From positions 186,001 to 250,000 of the forward strand of contig NZ_HG315687.1 of the NCBI RefSeq assembly GCF_000455365.1: a stretch of DNA of 64,000 nucleotides. Direction: 5' to 3'. A model generated the notes under the pieces. The model did not search any database and was not told the origin of the DNA. It saw only the letters and a list, made by a program, of their open reading frames with translations. The first letter of the stretch is position 1. Each line of letters begins with the position of its first letter. Origin of the DNA: Halopiger djelfimassiliensis. GTDB taxonomy: Archaea; Halobacteriota; Halobacteria; Halobacteriales; Natrialbaceae. The translations under genes were made by a program, and so were the position numbers. Positions 5,906-12,744 of the stretch are shown here, piece by piece.

Positions 5906-6721
5906 TCAGAGGTCGGCGGTACTGAACTGGAGATAGCCGAGCGCAAGCGGGACGACGAGCCAGCCACACAGCACGATCAGCGCAGTTACGGGGTTGACGT
6001 ACCACGGGGTCGTGGCGGCGAGGTGGGCCTGTGAGCCTCCGATTTCGAAAAGGGTTGCGACGAGGTGACGGTACGCCTCGCTTGGCGACGCCAGCTGGAG
6101 GCCGACCGCCCAGTCGGGCATGTCGCTCGGGAGTGCTATTCTGAAGCGATACAGGAGCCGTACGAACTGGTTGATAAACCAGTTCCATCCCAGATCGAGC
6201 ACGACGTACGCACCGATCGCCCTGATGAGGACCTGTCGTCCGGCGGTCGTACTCATCGAGCAGGCCAGCGCGATCGAGACGAACACGGCACCGTACAGGA
6301 CGGTCGCGACGACGAAGGCCAGATACGGTGCCAGCGATACCGACTCGTACTGGACGACTGCGATCGAACCGCCGACGATCAAACCGACGACTACCGGGAT
6401 GGTAAGGACGAGCAACCGGCCGACGAGTTTCCCCACGACGAAGTCCCGGCGGGACTGGGGAAGCGACAGCGAGAGGACGAGACTGCCCGATTCCCGCTCG
6501 TAGAGGACGGCCTTGTAACCGAGCACGATACCGACTATCGGTAACAGCCCGTGGACGTTCGCAAACGTCGTCTCGACGAACCCGTCAAACGGCCCGGAAC
6601 GCGGACCGAAGACGACGTTGCCGAGGATGAAAAGCCCCACGAACCCGATCAGCAGGAGCCAGATGGTCCGCGATCGGATCGCGTCCCGGAAGTCCTTCCG
6701 CGCGGTCGATTGCCAGTTCAT
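5906..6721 (-). CDS. ABC-2 type transporter permease (second copy)
   Basis: A 271-residue polytopic membrane protein beginning MNWQSTARKDFRDAIRSRT, an amphipathic N-terminus followed by about six TM helices. The cytoplasmic motif ERESGSLVLSLSLPQSRRD and GKLVGR are typical of NosY-like ABC-2 permeases, where this loop contacts the ATPase. It is clearly paralogous to the permease at 6786-7607 (shared LSLP.SR.D.VVGKLVGR and C-terminal LGYL.FS..DL), suggesting a heterodimeric channel. It lies 64 bp behind that gene and shares its ATPase. Substrate unknown. Confidence 0.88.
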   Translation of the reverse strand: MNWQSTARKDFRDAIRSRTIWLLLIGFVGLFILGNVVFGPRSGPFDGFVETTFANVHGLLPIVGIVLGYKAVLYERESGSLVLSLSLPQSRRDFVVGKLVGRLLVLTIPVVVGLIVGGSIAVVQYESVSLAPYLAFVVATVLYGAVFVSIALACSMSTTAGRQVLIRAIGAYVVLDLGWNWFINQFVRLLYRFRIALPSDMPDWAVGLQLASPSEAYRHLVATLFEIGGSQAHLAATTPWYVNPVTALIVLCGWLVVPLALGYLQFSTADL

Positions 6722-6785
6722 TCGCGATCACCCGTTTCGGGAGTCGTGTGGTCGAACATCGTCGTTGTTGAGGGGAGTCGGTCGG

Positions 6786-7607
6786 TCATAGGTCGGTGTT
6801 GCTAAACCGGAGGTAGCCAAGCGTTACCGGAACGACGGCCCAGACGAGAAACAGCGCGAGCGCGACCCACTCGCTGAGGTACCACGCGTCGGACCCGGCG
6901 TACGGCCCGGCTCTCTCGATGAAGAACCCGGTCAGGATTCGATCGTACAGCGTCGCGGGGTTGAGTCCGAACAGGAACAGGACGCCGTCGGGCAACCCGG
7001 CGTCGGTCAGCCCGATCGTCTCGAGGCCGTATCTGAGGCCGGCCTGAACGGGACTCCAGAAGAGGACGAACAGTCCGTAGAGTCCGAACGCACTGACCGT
7101 CGCGAGGTGTTTCGATCGCGTGAGCATCGAGATCGCCGTCGCGGTCGCGGTGAAGATCCAGCCATAGAGGACGGTGACGACGATAAAGGCCAGATACCAC
7201 CCGAGAGCGAGCGAGCCGAAGGGGTAGACGACGAGTGCCCCGGCGACGGCCAGTATGGTGATAAGCGACGTCGCGAAGGCGAGCGAGCGGCCGACGAGTT
7301 TCCCGACGACGAGATCACCCCGGCTGTACGGCAGCGACAGCAGTAGCGTCAGCTTGCCGGACGCCCGTTCGGTAACGATGGCACCGTGCCCGAGGAAGAC
7401 GCCGATCAGGGGCAGGAGGTGATTGATGCTCCCGAGCAAAACGCCGTCGCTGATGAACGTCCGCGTCGTGACCGCCCCGTCCGTGGTGATGGGATAGAAG
7501 TACCCGCTCAGGACGCAGGTGATAGCGAGCAGCCACAGCAGCCACCGGATCGCACGGGAGTCACGCGTCGTCGCGTACTCCCGGCGTGCGATCGTCGTCC
7601 ACGACAT
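6786..7607 (-). CDS. ABC-2 type transporter permease (first copy)
   Basis: A 273-residue membrane protein starting MSWTTIARREYATTRDSRAI with about six hydrophobic spans and the coupling loop ERASGKLTLLLSLPYSRGD plus GKLVGRS. The ATG at 7607 was preferred over an upstream in-frame start because it overlaps the ATPase stop codon (TGATG), a common coupling arrangement. Together with the ATPase and the paralogous downstream permease it forms an ABC-2 exporter of the NosFY/CcmAB-like type. No nos genes are nearby, so a role in nitrous oxide reductase maturation is not supported. Confidence 0.9.
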   Translation of the reverse strand: MSWTTIARREYATTRDSRAIRWLLWLLAITCVLSGYFYPITTDGAVTTRTFISDGVLLGSINHLLPLIGVFLGHGAIVTERASGKLTLLLSLPYSRGDLVVGKLVGRSLAFATSLITILAVAGALVVYPFGSLALGWYLAFIVVTVLYGWIFTATATAISMLTRSKHLATVSAFGLYGLFVLFWSPVQAGLRYGLETIGLTDAGLPDGVLFLFGLNPATLYDRILTGFFIERAGPYAGSDAWYLSEWVALALFLVWAVVPVTLGYLRFSNTDL

Positions 7608-8521
7608 CAGTTCACACCGTTGGTGTACTCGACGAACATCTCCTCGAGCGATGCCTCCTCGGTTCGGAAGTTCTCGACGTCGACGCCGGCTTCGTGGAGC
7701 GCGACCAGCACGGTCATTTTGGCGTCGTTCGTACACGTGACTTCGATGCGGTTCTCGTCGGGGTTCGGCCAGACGTTTTCGACGCCGTCGAGCGACTCGA
7801 GTCTCCCGACGACGTCCGTCTCGAGGTCGTCGACCGTAATCAACAGCTTCGTGCCGCCGCCGACGGACTGTCGGAGGCCGTCGATCGTATCGGTTGCGAC
7901 GACCTGTCCGTCGTACAGGATCCCGACCCGGTCACAGACGGCTTCGACCTGTTCGAGGATGTGACTCGAGAAGAAGACGGTCGCGCCGCGTTCGTTTTCC
8001 TCCCGGATGACCGTTCTGATCTGCTTGATTCCGTGGGGGTCGAGCCCGCTTGTGGGCTCGTCGAGGATGAGCAGGTCCGGTTCGCCGACGAGTGCCATTC
8101 CGAGGACGAGTCGCTGGGCCATCCCCTTCGAGTAACCGCCTGCCTTTTGATCGGCGGCGTCTCGAATGCCGACCCGCTCGAGAACCGCCATCGGTTCGGC
8201 GTCGGCCGCTTTCGCTTCGATCGCGTACTCCATGTGCTGTCGGCCCGTCAGCCGATCGTATACCGAATATCCGTCGGGGAGAACGCCCATTCGGGATTTC
8301 ACCTCGACATCGTCCTCCTGACAGTCGTGTCCGAATATCGTCGCCTGTCCGGAGTCCGGCTGGGTGAAATCGAGAAAGACGTTGATCAGCGTCGATTTAC
8401 CTGCGCCGTTGGGACCGAGAAAGCCGAAGATTTCGCCTTCGTCGACCGTCAGATCGACGCGATCGAGCGCCGTTACGGTACCGTACCGCTTGGAGACGTT
8501 CTCGACCGTTATTGCACTCAT
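7607..8521 (-). CDS. ABC transporter ATP-binding protein (ABC-2 exporter)
   Basis: A 304-residue ATPase with complete motifs: Walker A GPNGAGKST (about residues 35-43), signature YSKGMAQRL, Walker B with catalytic Glu in LLILDEPTSGLDP, and the H-switch in FFSSHILEQVE. A C-terminal domain of about 80 residues follows, as in the NosF/CcmA-like DrrA class. It energises the two permeases downstream, with which it overlaps by 1 nt. The first gene of the three, it begins 148 bp from a divergent TPR gene. Substrate cannot be deduced. Confidence 0.93.
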   Translation of the reverse strand: MSAITVENVSKRYGTVTALDRVDLTVDEGEIFGFLGPNGAGKSTLINVFLDFTQPDSGQATIFGHDCQEDDVEVKSRMGVLPDGYSVYDRLTGRQHMEYAIEAKAADAEPMAVLERVGIRDAADQKAGGYSKGMAQRLVLGMALVGEPDLLILDEPTSGLDPHGIKQIRTVIREENERGATVFFSSHILEQVEAVCDRVGILYDGQVVATDTIDGLRQSVGGGTKLLITVDDLETDVVGRLESLDGVENVWPNPDENRIEVTCTNDAKMTVLVALHEAGVDVENFRTEEASLEEMFVEYTNGVN

Positions 8522-9825: not shown

Positions 9826-9831
9826 GCAGCG

Positions 9832-10752
9832 TCACCCTTCCGGAGGTCCCACGGGGTCGCCATCCGACTGCGGCGGCACCGGTGGCATGCGGGGTGTCGT
9901 CTCGATCACCAGATCGCGGATCGTCGCCCCCGCATCATCGAGTCCCGTCACGACCCGCGCTTTCGTCGCCGGGTCGGCGATAACGCACGTCAGCGTCCTG
10001 CCGGTCGCGCCGGTGACGGTGACGCCCGCGATCGAGTCGAGGATGTTGCGGCCCCACTCGGCGGGGTCGGCGAGCGTGAGCGTCATCGTCGCCCCCTCGC
10101 GGCGTTCTTCGACCGTCTCGACGGCGACCAGCCGTCCGTCGGCCACCACCCCGACACGGTCACAGAGCGGCCGGACGTGACCGTCCCTGTGGCTCGAGAG
10201 GACGGCCGTCGTCCCCCGCTGGACCGCGGCGGCAACGAGTGTCTGCACTTCGCGGACGCCGCGGCGATCGAGCCCGGTGAAGGGAGCATCGAGGAGGAGC
10301 AGGTCGGGATCGCCGCTCAGGGCCATCCCGACCGCGAGCCGTCGGCGTACTCCCGCGGCGTACTCGCCGACGGGCCGCGCGAGGTCGGCGGCCGAGAGCC
10401 CGATTCGCTCCCGGATCGCGTCGGGGTCGTCGTCGGCGTCCGCGGCTTCGAGCGCCGTCTCGATGTGCCGACGGCCGGAACGACTCGGCTCCATCTCGAA
10501 CGCGTCCGGGAGCACACCGACGCGCGATCTGAACGCGTCGGTCCCGTCGCCGGGATCCGTCCCCAGTACCCTTACCGTTCCCGCCGTCGGGCGAGTGACC
10601 CCCCGAAGTACGTCGATCGTGGTCGACTTTCCTGCGCCGTTCGGGCCCAGCAAGCCGAACGCTTCGCCGTTCTCGATACGGAGATCGAGGTCGTCGACGG
10701 CGATGTGATCGCCGTACCGTTTCGTCAAACCGCTCGTCTCGATTGCGGGCAT
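9832..10752 (-). CDS. Solitary ABC ATPase lacking the Walker B catalytic glutamate
   Basis: A 306-residue DrrA/CcmA-type ATPase. Walker A is intact (GPNGAGKST, residues 36-44), as is the His switch (AVLSSHRDG), but two motifs deviate. The signature loop reads EYAAGVRRRL instead of (L/Y)SGGQ/SKG, and Walker B reads LLLLDAPFTGLD, with Ala156 where the catalytic Glu should follow Asp155. A C-terminal domain of about 80 residues with VTVTGATGRTLTCVI follows. No permease is adjacent. The start MPAIETSGLTKRYG at 10752 is supported by a TTATC element 29 bp upstream. Slow hydrolysis or a switch-like, ATP-clamped role is inferred from the missing Glu. Divergent from the HTH/membrane operon. Confidence 0.85.
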   Translation of the reverse strand: MPAIETSGLTKRYGDHIAVDDLDLRIENGEAFGLLGPNGAGKSTTIDVLRGVTRPTAGTVRVLGTDPGDGTDAFRSRVGVLPDAFEMEPSRSGRRHIETALEAADADDDPDAIRERIGLSAADLARPVGEYAAGVRRRLAVGMALSGDPDLLLLDAPFTGLDRRGVREVQTLVAAAVQRGTTAVLSSHRDGHVRPLCDRVGVVADGRLVAVETVEERREGATMTLTLADPAEWGRNILDSIAGVTVTGATGRTLTCVIADPATKARVVTGLDDAGATIRDLVIETTPRMPPVPPQSDGDPVGPPEG

Positions 10753-10789
10753 CGTCGTCCCGTTGCGCCGACGGGACCGATAACCAGCC

Positions 10790-10818
10790 CCCACGGTTTC
10801 ACGGCCGGAAACTGTGGG
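10790..10818. promoter_or_regulatory. 29-bp dyad between divergent promoters (candidate operator)
   Basis: Arms CCCACGGTTTC (10790-10800) and GAAACTGTGGG (10808-10818) are inverted repeats of 11 bp with a single mismatch and a 7-bp spacer. The dyad abuts the plus-strand TATA box at 10821 (BRE position) and lies just upstream of the minus-strand TTATC element (10779-10783) of the ABC ATPase. It is thus placed to serve both promoters. The obvious candidate ligand is the HTH protein encoded immediately downstream. Confidence 0.6.
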
Positions 10819-10820
10819 AT

Positions 10821-10830
10821 CTTTTATATC
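10821..10830 (+). promoter_or_regulatory. TATA box of the HTH/membrane operon
   Basis: CTTTTATATC is centred 27 bp before the ATG at 10853, the ideal spacing for a leaderless haloarchaeal transcript. This decides the start over an in-frame ATG 39 bp further upstream. Confidence 0.75.
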
Positions 10831-10852
10831 AGCTATCCGTACGAACGAGCGA

Positions 10853-11194
10853 ATGACCGACGATGAGGATCGAGAACTGCTCGCGTTGCTCGACGACGAG
10901 TACGCACGCCGCATCCTCATCGCGGCCAGCGAGGAACCGATGTCCGTCGAGCGCCTCACCGACTACTGTGATGCGTCGCCGCCGACGATCTACCGGCGGA
11001 TCGACCGGCTCACCGAACAGGGGTTTCTCGACGAGTATCAGGAGCTCGATCCCGATGGACACCACTACAAGACCTACAGCACTCGCCTCGAGCGCGTGGC
11101 GATCGAGATCGCCGACGGCTCGATGGAGACCGACGTGTATCGACGCGACGAGGACCCCGCGGATCGGTTCACGCGACTTTTCGAGGACCTGTGA
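10853..11194 (+). CDS. ArsR-like winged helix-turn-helix regulator
   Basis: A 113-residue protein starting MTDDEDRELLALLDDEYARR. The wHTH is the usual haloarchaeal ArsR-type: helix ARRILIAASEEPMSVERL, turn and recognition helix CDASPPTIYRRIDRLTEQG, and wing FLDEYQELDPDGHHYKTY. No metal-binding Cys pair of classical ArsR is seen (single Cys in DYCDAS), so the ligand is unknown. It overlaps the next gene by 4 nt (GTGA). Start chosen by the TATA box at 10821. Its position heading an operon of membrane proteins and facing a dyad suggests autoregulation and control of the divergent ABC ATPase. Confidence 0.85.
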   Translation: MTDDEDRELLALLDDEYARRILIAASEEPMSVERLTDYCDASPPTIYRRIDRLTEQGFLDEYQELDPDGHHYKTYSTRLERVAIEIADGSMETDVYRRDEDPADRFTRLFEDL

Positions 11195-11517
11195 TCACGA
11201 TGGTCGGATTCCCACTTCAGGCCGTCTCGGGCGACACGCCGGTTGTCGCGGTCGCCGTCTTCCTCGGACAGGCGACCGCGTTCGTCCTCGCCTGCTGGAT
11301 CGCGAAGCGTTCCTACGACGGGTATCGGGACGCTCACCGACGGCCGTTGCTCTGGCTGGCGCTGGGGATCACGCTGCTTGCCGCGGTGCCGACCGGCGTT
11401 CGATTCCTGCTCCCGACGCTTCTCGGGGCGTCCTCGTTGACGACGACCGTGTTCGCGACCGCGAGCGAGATCGTCGGCCTCGCGGCGATCCTCTATACCG
11501 TCTACGGTCGCCCGTGA
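11191..11517 (+). CDS. Small four-TM-type membrane protein (DUF7521-like), copy 1
   Basis: A 108-residue protein with GTG at 11191 overlapping the HTH stop (GTGA); an ATG three codons later is the alternative start. Three hydrophobic spans are clear: TPVVAVAVFLGQATAFVLACW, PLLWLALGITLLAAVPTGVRF and TTTVFATASEIVGLAAILYT, with a conserved-looking cytoplasmic AKRSYDGYRDAHRRP loop. It is paralogous to the next gene (shared A.RGY/D..R.PL..L..G..LL..VP), and resembles the haloarchaeal DUF7521 family as I recall it. Role unknown; it probably works with the flanking paralog and the sensor-domain protein. Confidence 0.75.
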   Translation: MITMVGFPLQAVSGDTPVVAVAVFLGQATAFVLACWIAKRSYDGYRDAHRRPLLWLALGITLLAAVPTGVRFLLPTLLGASSLTTTVFATASEIVGLAAILYTVYGRP

Positions 11518-11545
11518 TTCGCCCCGATCGAACGAGGTGGCGGCG

Positions 11546-11884
11546 ATGACCGCGGGCGTCGGTACCGTCGCTCCCGTTCTCGAGACGACGGCGTTCGGAC
11601 TCGACGAGGCGACGACGATCTTTTTCATCGGGCTGACAAGCGCTGCGCTCGGAACGATCGTCACGTGGACGGCCTACCGTGGGTACGCTCGCAACGACAG
11701 CCGGCCGATGCTGTTTCTCGGTACCGGCGTCGCGTTGCTCACGGTCGTTCCGTTCGTGCTCTCGCATGCGGTCGATCGACTCCTCGAGGTGGCCGACGCG
11801 ACGGTGTTGCTCGTCGTCACCGCCTGTCACCTGCTCGGACTGCTCGCGATCGTTCGCTCGTTCAGGAGGCCCGGTTCAGAATAA
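11546..11884 (+). CDS. Small membrane protein (DUF7521-like), copy 2
   Basis: A 112-residue protein starting MTAGVGTVAPVLETTAFGLD at ATG 11546. A Shine-Dalgarno-like GAGGTGG six bases upstream decides this start. Hydrophobic spans: TIFFIGLTSAALGTIVTWTAY, PMLFLGTGVALLTVVPFVLSH and ATVLLVVTACHLLGLLAIVRS; the loop YRGYARNDSRP matches copy 1. The stop TAA overlaps the next ATG by 1 nt (TAATG). The duplicate pair suggests a heteromeric membrane complex. No catalytic residues are evident. Confidence 0.77.
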   Translation: MTAGVGTVAPVLETTAFGLDEATTIFFIGLTSAALGTIVTWTAYRGYARNDSRPMLFLGTGVALLTVVPFVLSHAVDRLLEVADATVLLVVTACHLLGLLAIVRSFRRPGSE

Positions 11885-12744
11885 TGTCGAGTATGTCACC
11901 CGCACATTCCACAGCCGACGCGGTTCTTGCACGTATCGTGGCGTGGCTGCGCTGGTTTTTCGGCGTCGCCGTTCGCGAACGAACCTACGGTACCCTCGCG
12001 TATCTCTTGGTAGCGTTTCCGCTGGGACTCGGCTACTTCATACTCCTCGTGATCGGAGTCAGCCTCCCGCTTGGATTCGCGTTTGCGCTCGTCGATATGG
12101 CGGTTTCGTCCCCTATCGCGCTGCTCATCGCCGGGATTCCGATCCTCCTGCTCATGATCGTCGTCGGAATCCCGCTCGTTCTGTGGGTGCTTGTGTTGAC
12201 GATCGAACTGGCCGCCCTCGAGCGGGTCCTCGCCGAGCGGTTGCTCGGGGCCGACATTTCGACGTCCGAGCCGGCCCGGACGTTCCGCGAGCGGGCGCGA
12301 CGTCTCGTTCTCGACCGGGGGACGTGGAAGGGGATCGGCTATCTGTTCAGCAAGTTCGTCCTCGGGGTCGTCTCGCTGATCGCCCTCATTGTCGGGGTCG
12401 CGTTCACGTACGTACTGGTCGCCGCACCGCTTCATTATCGGAACCGATCCGTCGGGATCCACGTTGCCGGGCCGATCGAGTTCGTCCCGGAACTGACGTA
12501 CCGACACGACGGCTGGGCCGTCGATGTCGTGTCCTCGACGACGCTCTCGATCGCCGACGGCGAACTGATCTCGCTGTACGTCGATTCGTTCGCGTCGGCG
12601 TTGGTCGTTTCGGCGGTCGGCGTTCTGGTCGGGCTCGTCGTGCTCCACCTGTTCAACGCCCTCGGGTGGCTGTATGCACGCTATACGGAACTCCTTTTGC
12701 GCGGGACGCAGCCGTCGCTCTTCCGTGAACCGCCGACGCAGTGA
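11884..12744 (+). CDS. Membrane protein with putative sensor domain
   Basis: A 286-residue polytopic protein. After a short N-terminus comes RERTYGTLAYLLVAFPLGLG, the hallmark opening of the 'putative sensor' domain (PF13796 type) that precedes histidine kinases in actinobacteria. Here it stands alone without a kinase. Hydrophobic hairpins lie at about residues 37-65 and 75-110 and again around 150-185. An exported-looking stretch (FVPELTYRHDGWAVDVVSST) and a final TM (ALVVSAVGVLVGLVVLHLF) follow. Being the last gene of the HTH operon, it may pass an envelope signal to the HTH protein. This is inference. Confidence 0.75.
   Translation: MSSMSPAHSTADAVLARIVAWLRWFFGVAVRERTYGTLAYLLVAFPLGLGYFILLVIGVSLPLGFAFALVDMAVSSPIALLIAGIPILLLMIVVGIPLVLWVLVLTIELAALERVLAERLLGADISTSEPARTFRERARRLVLDRGTWKGIGYLFSKFVLGVVSLIALIVGVAFTYVLVAAPLHYRNRSVGIHVAGPIEFVPELTYRHDGWAVDVVSSTTLSIADGELISLYVDSFASALVVSAVGVLVGLVVLHLFNALGWLYARYTELLLRGTQPSLFREPPTQ

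Follow-up and report, generated by a model that had tools for sequence, protein, structure and literature searches.

A probable kinase-less signalling cassette with a predicted operator beside an eroding ABC-2 exporter ATPase in Halopiger djelfimassiliensis

What does a solitary ATP-binding cassette (ABC) ATPase without its catalytic Glu do beside an operon of regulator and membrane-protein genes? The question arises in a stretch of 64,000 nucleotides of the haloarchaeon Halopiger djelfimassiliensis (contig NZ_HG315687.1, positions 186,001 to 250,000), called the window here. The ATPase gene faces, head to head, an operon encoding a winged helix-turn-helix (wHTH) regulator, two small membrane proteins of the DUF7521 type and a membrane protein with a PF13796 Sensor domain. 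A preliminary description of this DNA treated the five genes as one self-contained circuit. Comparison with related genomes suggests that the head-to-head pair is probably composed of a kinase-less signalling cassette with its own operator and the eroding remnant of an ABC-2 exporter. The features of the locus are as follows, in window coordinates.

9826–9901: deletion junction reaching into the ATPase gene (blastn against relatives L105, L110, L111 and L109).
9832–10752, minus strand: orphan, degenerate ABC-2 exporter ATPase of the DrrA/NosF type (Pfam ABC_tran and comparison with relatives).
10778–10785, minus strand: TATA-like element of the ATPase promoter, GGTTATCG (from the sequence; TATACAC or TTATCC in relatives).
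10790–10818: predicted operator dyad, CCCACGGTTTC-ACGGCCG-GAAACTGTGGG, with 10 of 11 pairs matched and the core TTC (10798–10800)-N7-GAA (10808–10810).
10822–10829, plus strand: TATA box of the wHTH operon, TTTTATAT, 24–31 nt 5´ of the ATG, a leaderless-type spacing.
10853–11194, plus strand: wHTH regulator, HTH_20 (Pfam), 113 aa.
11153–11191, plus strand: conserved C-terminal tail of the wHTH, DPADRFTRLFEDL (alignment of loci).
11191–11517, plus strand: small membrane protein 1, DUF7521-like, 108 aa, with about three hydrophobic segments.
11546–11884, plus strand: small membrane protein 2, DUF7521, 112 aa counted from the ATG.
11884–12744, plus strand: PF13796 Sensor membrane protein, 286 aa.

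The five open reading frames (ORFs), their order and their overlapping or near-overlapping joints were confirmed as previously described, with the ATPase on the minus strand and wHTH-DUF7521-like-DUF7521-Sensor on the plus strand. The wHTH starts at ATG 10853; the upstream GTG 10814 is ruled out because it lies inside the dyad and upstream of the TATA box. The gene of small membrane protein 1 shares its first 4 nt with the end of the wHTH gene, small membrane protein 2 could alternatively start at GTG 11537, and the gene of the latter overlaps the Sensor gene by 1 nt. Small membrane protein 2 matches DUF7521 (PF24365) with 42.4 bits and protein 1 falls just under the gathering cut-off of 27 with 23.7 bits; the two are paralogous, with cross-matches of E 1e-5 to 1e-7. 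The Sensor scores 99.1 bits against PF13796 (gathering score 28.2). Profile searches matched no kinase, receiver or other enzymatic domain in the operon proteins, and histidine kinase and receiver domains of two-component systems were matched in none of the five proteins.

The operon side of the locus recurs throughout the haloarchaea. A scan of the wHTH alignment against one genome per species (84,980 species) yielded 80 wHTH loci, all of them haloarchaeal. A DUF7521 gene lies beside the wHTH in 79 of these loci and a Sensor in 44, often together with a second divergent Sensor. Paralogues included, 134 of 145 sampled haloarchaeal genomes and 55 of 59 genera have a member of the wHTH family. 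The cassette stands without a neighbouring ATPase in Natribaculum, Halostella, Halosimplex and others, and orthologues of the ATPase, which have a permease, are usually nowhere near a cassette. Within the genus Natrinema (29 genomes), the Sensor is present in 21 genomes and the permease in 24; in the sole genome that appears to carry a Sensor without a permease (G200), the permease is cut by a contig end. Conversely, four Natrinema genomes (G178, G211, G212 and G160, the last apparently N. limicola, locus L114) retain the exporter and have a lost or fragmentary cassette. The window is the reverse, having lost the exporter and kept the cassette, and the exporter and the cassette are therefore separable.

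From this gene content, the wHTH, two DUF7521 proteins and the PF13796 Sensor form a conserved haloarchaeal cassette. The preliminary description was thus right about the operon as a unit conserved across genomes and is not supported in extending that unit to the ATPase: many cassettes lack it, a permease accompanies its orthologues, and the copy in the window is eroded. An action of the ATPase on the membrane proteins finds no support either, given the cassettes without an ATPase, the orthologues that have a permease and usually lie elsewhere, and the relic state of the window copy.

Several relatives vary this arrangement. In L101, L102 and L103, from other genomes of the same family, Sensor-ATPase-permease diverges from wHTH-DUF7521-DUF7521-Sensor. 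At L127:12444–12797 and L171:11976–12536, the other strand encodes an additional wHTH-DUF7521 pair some 4 kb away from the first one. In N. limicola (L114:7923–8450), wHTH residues 1–91 are fused in frame to the Sensor C-terminus; the fusion arose when both DUF7521 genes and the greater part of the Sensor were lost, with the exporter kept.

The 29-bp dyad reported between both promoters is real (10790–10818) and conserved at the wHTH operon promoter among haloarchaeal loci. Its consensus, CACRGYTTC-N7-GAARCYGTG, was derived from 37 upstream regions; matches of at least 13/18 occur in 39 of the 80 upstream regions scanned, compared with 0.55 expected from shuffles. The 37 sites, 30 of them unique, occupy a fixed promoter position, and TTC and GAA are invariant in all of them. 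The dyad lies 4–7 nt from the TATA run, whereas its distance to the annotated start ranges from -55 to -79; this constant gap ties the dyad to the basal promoter. The bare core TTC-N7-GAA occurs in 9 of the 43 remaining upstream regions (1.2 expected). Dyads precede wHTH genes in Natrinema, Haloterrigena, Natribaculum, Halostella, Halosimplex, Halorientalis, Halorubrum, Halobellus, Halopenitus and Haloarcula, including cassettes with no ATPase nearby; the two promoters have the dyad in common in the Natrinema/Haloterrigena group and the window genome but nowhere else. At position 6, the unique sites carry a T-A pair in 15 cases and a C-G pair in 15, with zero exceptions, while pairing at the other variable positions is no better than shuffled. 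The switch goes along with residue differences in 19 columns that tell two wHTH subfamilies apart. Several of these columns lie in or beside the predicted recognition helix, which fits co-evolution of wHTH and operator. Taken together, the dyad is the predicted operator of the wHTH operon.

A pattern scan of the own genome found one strong (exact) dyad site, and the wHTH is therefore predicted to be a local regulator. A wider regulon was considered and rejected, as genomic near-matches with 1–2 mismatches look like chance; at one of them (G000:C3:540571) the dyad overlaps the start of an unrelated membrane-protein ORF. The same genome encodes a paralogous wHTH-DUF7521 pair (L104, C3:392000–407000; wHTH at C3:398979–399302), whose dyad is of a variant form, TTTTC-N7-GAAAA, and precedes the TATA at similar spacing; L161 has the same form.

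The ATPase has a different history. Its best match is TIGR01188 (drrA), with NosF among the small solved chains, and its closest relatives, at about 50–61% identity, are found in about 26 haloarchaeal genomes. Most of these relatives share the chromosomal location of the window gene, flanked by a TPR/DUF424 pair and by a gene for a SufS-type aminotransferase, and all of them have an ABC2_membrane_2 permease gene downstream; the synteny TPR-DUF424-[permease-ATPase]-SufS was found in >20 genomes. In nine Natrinema/Haloterrigena loci, an intact ATPase-permease pair diverges from the wHTH operon in the same layout as in the window, and in Natribaculum and Halostella the cassette stands alone at the TPR-DUF424/SufS spot. 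Homology of the window to its relatives (blastn) ends at the DUF424 stop (~9825) and restarts at ~9901 inside the ATPase gene, where the relatives hold about 1040 bp that include the permease gene. The last ~20 ATPase codons in the window are new sequence. A translated search found no permease remnant at the junction, and the own genome holds no close homologue of the lost permease, only distant ones with at most 38% identity among well-covered hits. This comparison identifies the window ATPase as the remnant of a standard ABC-2 exporter whose permease was deleted. The statement that the locus has no permease holds for the adjoining genes but not for the surroundings: an intact DrrA/NosF-like exporter lies at 5906–8521, with an LDEP ATPase (7607–8521) and two ABC2_membrane_2 permeases (5906–7736), and it is kept beside the TPR gene in two further genomes (L070 and L072).

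The remnant is also damaged at its catalytic motifs. Walker B reads DAP (E156A; LLLLDAPFTGLD), confirming the reported absence of the catalytic Glu, and the signature reads YAAG instead of YSKG. The 31 related loci have DEP and YSxG; the window copy alone is without this Glu and the Ser of the signature. Walker A (GPNGAGKST), the D-loop (GLD) and the H-loop (SSH) are retained. Of the marks of a functional exporter of this type, the ATPase thus retains Walker A, D-loop and H-loop; the operon permease and the two residues in Walker B and the signature are missing. Among 159 columns invariant in 15 orthologues, 49 are changed in the window ATPase, compared with 0–7 in five orthologues tested likewise; none of the 11 invariant Walker A residues is altered, and change is heavy in the stretch after Walker A, in the Q-loop region, along the signature helix and around the H-loop. 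The C-terminal SLESLF stretch of the relatives, comparable to the LDEVFL motif of DrrA (PMC3533511), is lost. The window ATPase is 54–59% identical to Natrinema orthologues that are themselves 80–95% identical to one another, while for the window wHTH, small proteins, Sensor and SufS the distance to Natrinema is similar to that among Natrinema copies. In a two-ratio codon model (own implementation, F3x4), the ATPase omega is 0.28 on the window branch and 0.08 elsewhere (2ΔlnL 25.5), on a branch long enough for saturation to matter. No shift was found on this branch for the wHTH, small protein 1, Sensor or SufS. Small protein 2 (11546–11884) has a weak rise, 0.28 vs 0.08 (2ΔlnL 5.5). The window ATPase is eroding and does not act in the cassette as the ATPase of a transporter.

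How the cassette might signal without a kinase is suggested by the wHTH tail. The wHTH has no ligand domain and carries the conserved acidic tail listed above; all 81 wHTHs with a DUF7521 neighbour have a tail of this DRFT type, which none of the 18 unlinked wHTHs has (Fisher 4e-20). DUF7521 proteins have an invariant Gly-Tyr within a basic loop (AYRGYRRN). Confident fold models were obtained for the Sensor (predicted local distance difference test (pLDDT) 86, predicted template-modelling score (pTM) 0.78, with one poorly predicted segment at residues ~190–235) and for DUF7521 protein 2 (pLDDT 86, pTM 0.71). Neither gave a convincing match in the PDB, with no Foldseek hit of E <0.001 and a best VIA Z of 5.0, which is uninformative for helical proteins; defence-system models gave generic ABC and HTH matches only. 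We propose that the wHTH, as a dimer, occupies the dyad next to the transcription factor B recognition element (BRE) and so controls its own operon. The membrane proteins would read the state of the envelope or membrane, making the cassette a putative envelope sensor, and would touch the wHTH directly to retain it or let it go, probably through binding of the acidic DRFT tail to the conserved basic GYRR loop of DUF7521. In the simplest model, the Sensor would alter the tail-DUF7521 contact, and direct contact of this kind would permit signalling without a kinase. In the Natrinema relatives, the exporter shares the dyad within the divergent promoter region. The direction of regulation leans slightly to activation, with repression possible, because the dyad abuts the BRE and upstream sites in the TrmB family go with activation: in that family, sites upstream of BRE/TATA are associated with activation, and overlapping or downstream sites with repression (PMC4158304).

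The retained ATPase could also be read, in the strongest version of what the preliminary description suggested, as a recruited signalling subunit of the cassette that binds but does not hydrolyse ATP, dimerises and gates the Sensor or the wHTH. Retention of Walker A, the D-loop and the H-loop His amid other change, the rejection of a neutral omega and the retained head-to-head promoter with its common dyad are consistent with such a role. We nevertheless regard it as quite unlikely, since the state is known from one genome only, the signature Ser, Q-loop region and C-terminal motif are eroded in one chain, many cassettes lack an ATPase, and the wHTH, protein 1 and Sensor show no parallel rate change. 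Pairing of the ATPase, as the degenerate subunit, with the exporter ATPase at 7607–8521 and its permeases at 5906–7736 in a heterodimeric transporter is highly improbable, even though that exporter is 1.3 kb off and many ABC exporters have degenerate half-sites (PMC7544095). In composite ABC sites the Walker motifs of one chain pair with the signature of the other, so that spoiling both in the same chain would damage both sites; moreover, in L070 and L072 the neighbouring exporter coexists with an intact ATPase copy that has its own permease. Finally, the wHTH cassette might chiefly be devoted to regulating the divergent exporter, and it too might be on its way out in the window genome. The two are head to head in Haloarchaeobius (L134, L139) and Haladaptatus (L133) as well, and each Sensor-bearing genome among the 29 Natrinema keeps the exporter, allowing for the truncated G200 contig. 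This reading is unlikely: most cassettes have no exporter nearby, the exporter excess near cassettes outside Natrinema is small and based on five hits, and the window wHTH, protein 1 and Sensor are under normal constraint.

Some observations weigh against a signalling cassette beside an exporter relic. The Sensor is undetected in nearly half of the loci, and some have one DUF7521. Linked and unlinked wHTHs belong to different subfamilies, so the association of tail and DUF7521 may reflect common descent rather than contact; likewise, the base change at position 6, which follows the split between two wHTH subfamilies, may have happened only once. For the ATPase, omega = 1 is rejected (2ΔlnL 37), and constraint was therefore relaxed rather than absent throughout the branch. 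With the frame open and Walker A intact, ATP binding may have been kept, or the gene may have been free of constraint for only part of the branch.

The closest published analogue is HAAS-PadR (mSystems 2024, PMC11237479), which is likewise kinase-less, combines a stand-alone wHTH with membrane-associated partners and has been proposed to offer an alternative to two-component systems under envelope stress (PMC11237479). The cassette is a different system, with an HTH_20/ArsR-like wHTH and with DUF7521 and PF13796 as partners. The HAAS-type domains DUF1700, DUF1129 and DUF1048 were unmatched in the five proteins, as was PspC, and PadR reached 16.6 bits (cut-off 27). Archaeal ArsR-like wHTHs (PH1932, 1uly; 2p4w) match most of the cassette wHTH by profile (1uly, E 1.3e-6), but the cassette has the DRFT tail, DUF7521 neighbours and an operator that lies immediately 5´ of the BRE. 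Archaeal regulators of the TrmB family also use palindromic sites adjoining BRE/TATA (PMC4158304), yet they belong to another protein family with another dyad, and the cassette wHTH lacks a ligand domain. The ATPase is alike in type to those of DrrAB/NosFY-type ABC-2 exporters, and the lost permease is of the ABC2_membrane_2 family; unlike them, the window copy has no permease, catalytic Glu, signature Ser or LDEVFL-like C-terminal motif. The literature search found no paper that names DUF7521/PF24365 and only two, both unrelated, for PF13796. The cassette is widespread, unnamed and undescribed in the literature searched.

The ATPase half of the locus is ordinary genome decay. It provides a clean natural example of the decay of an exporter ATPase after permease loss, and it cautions against taking a solitary motif-less ATPase for a new mechanism. 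The predicted operator, the fixed gene set and the candidate docking tail open a putative, unnamed archaeal signalling system to direct tests in tractable haloarchaea. More tentatively, and with doubt outweighing confidence, haloarchaea may share an undescribed kinase-less system in which the DRFT tail of the wHTH docks on DUF7521, PF13796 proteins act as envelope sensors, and TTC-N7-GAA operators provide the output. If true, this would be a third membrane-to-DNA signalling route beside two-component systems and HAAS-PadR.

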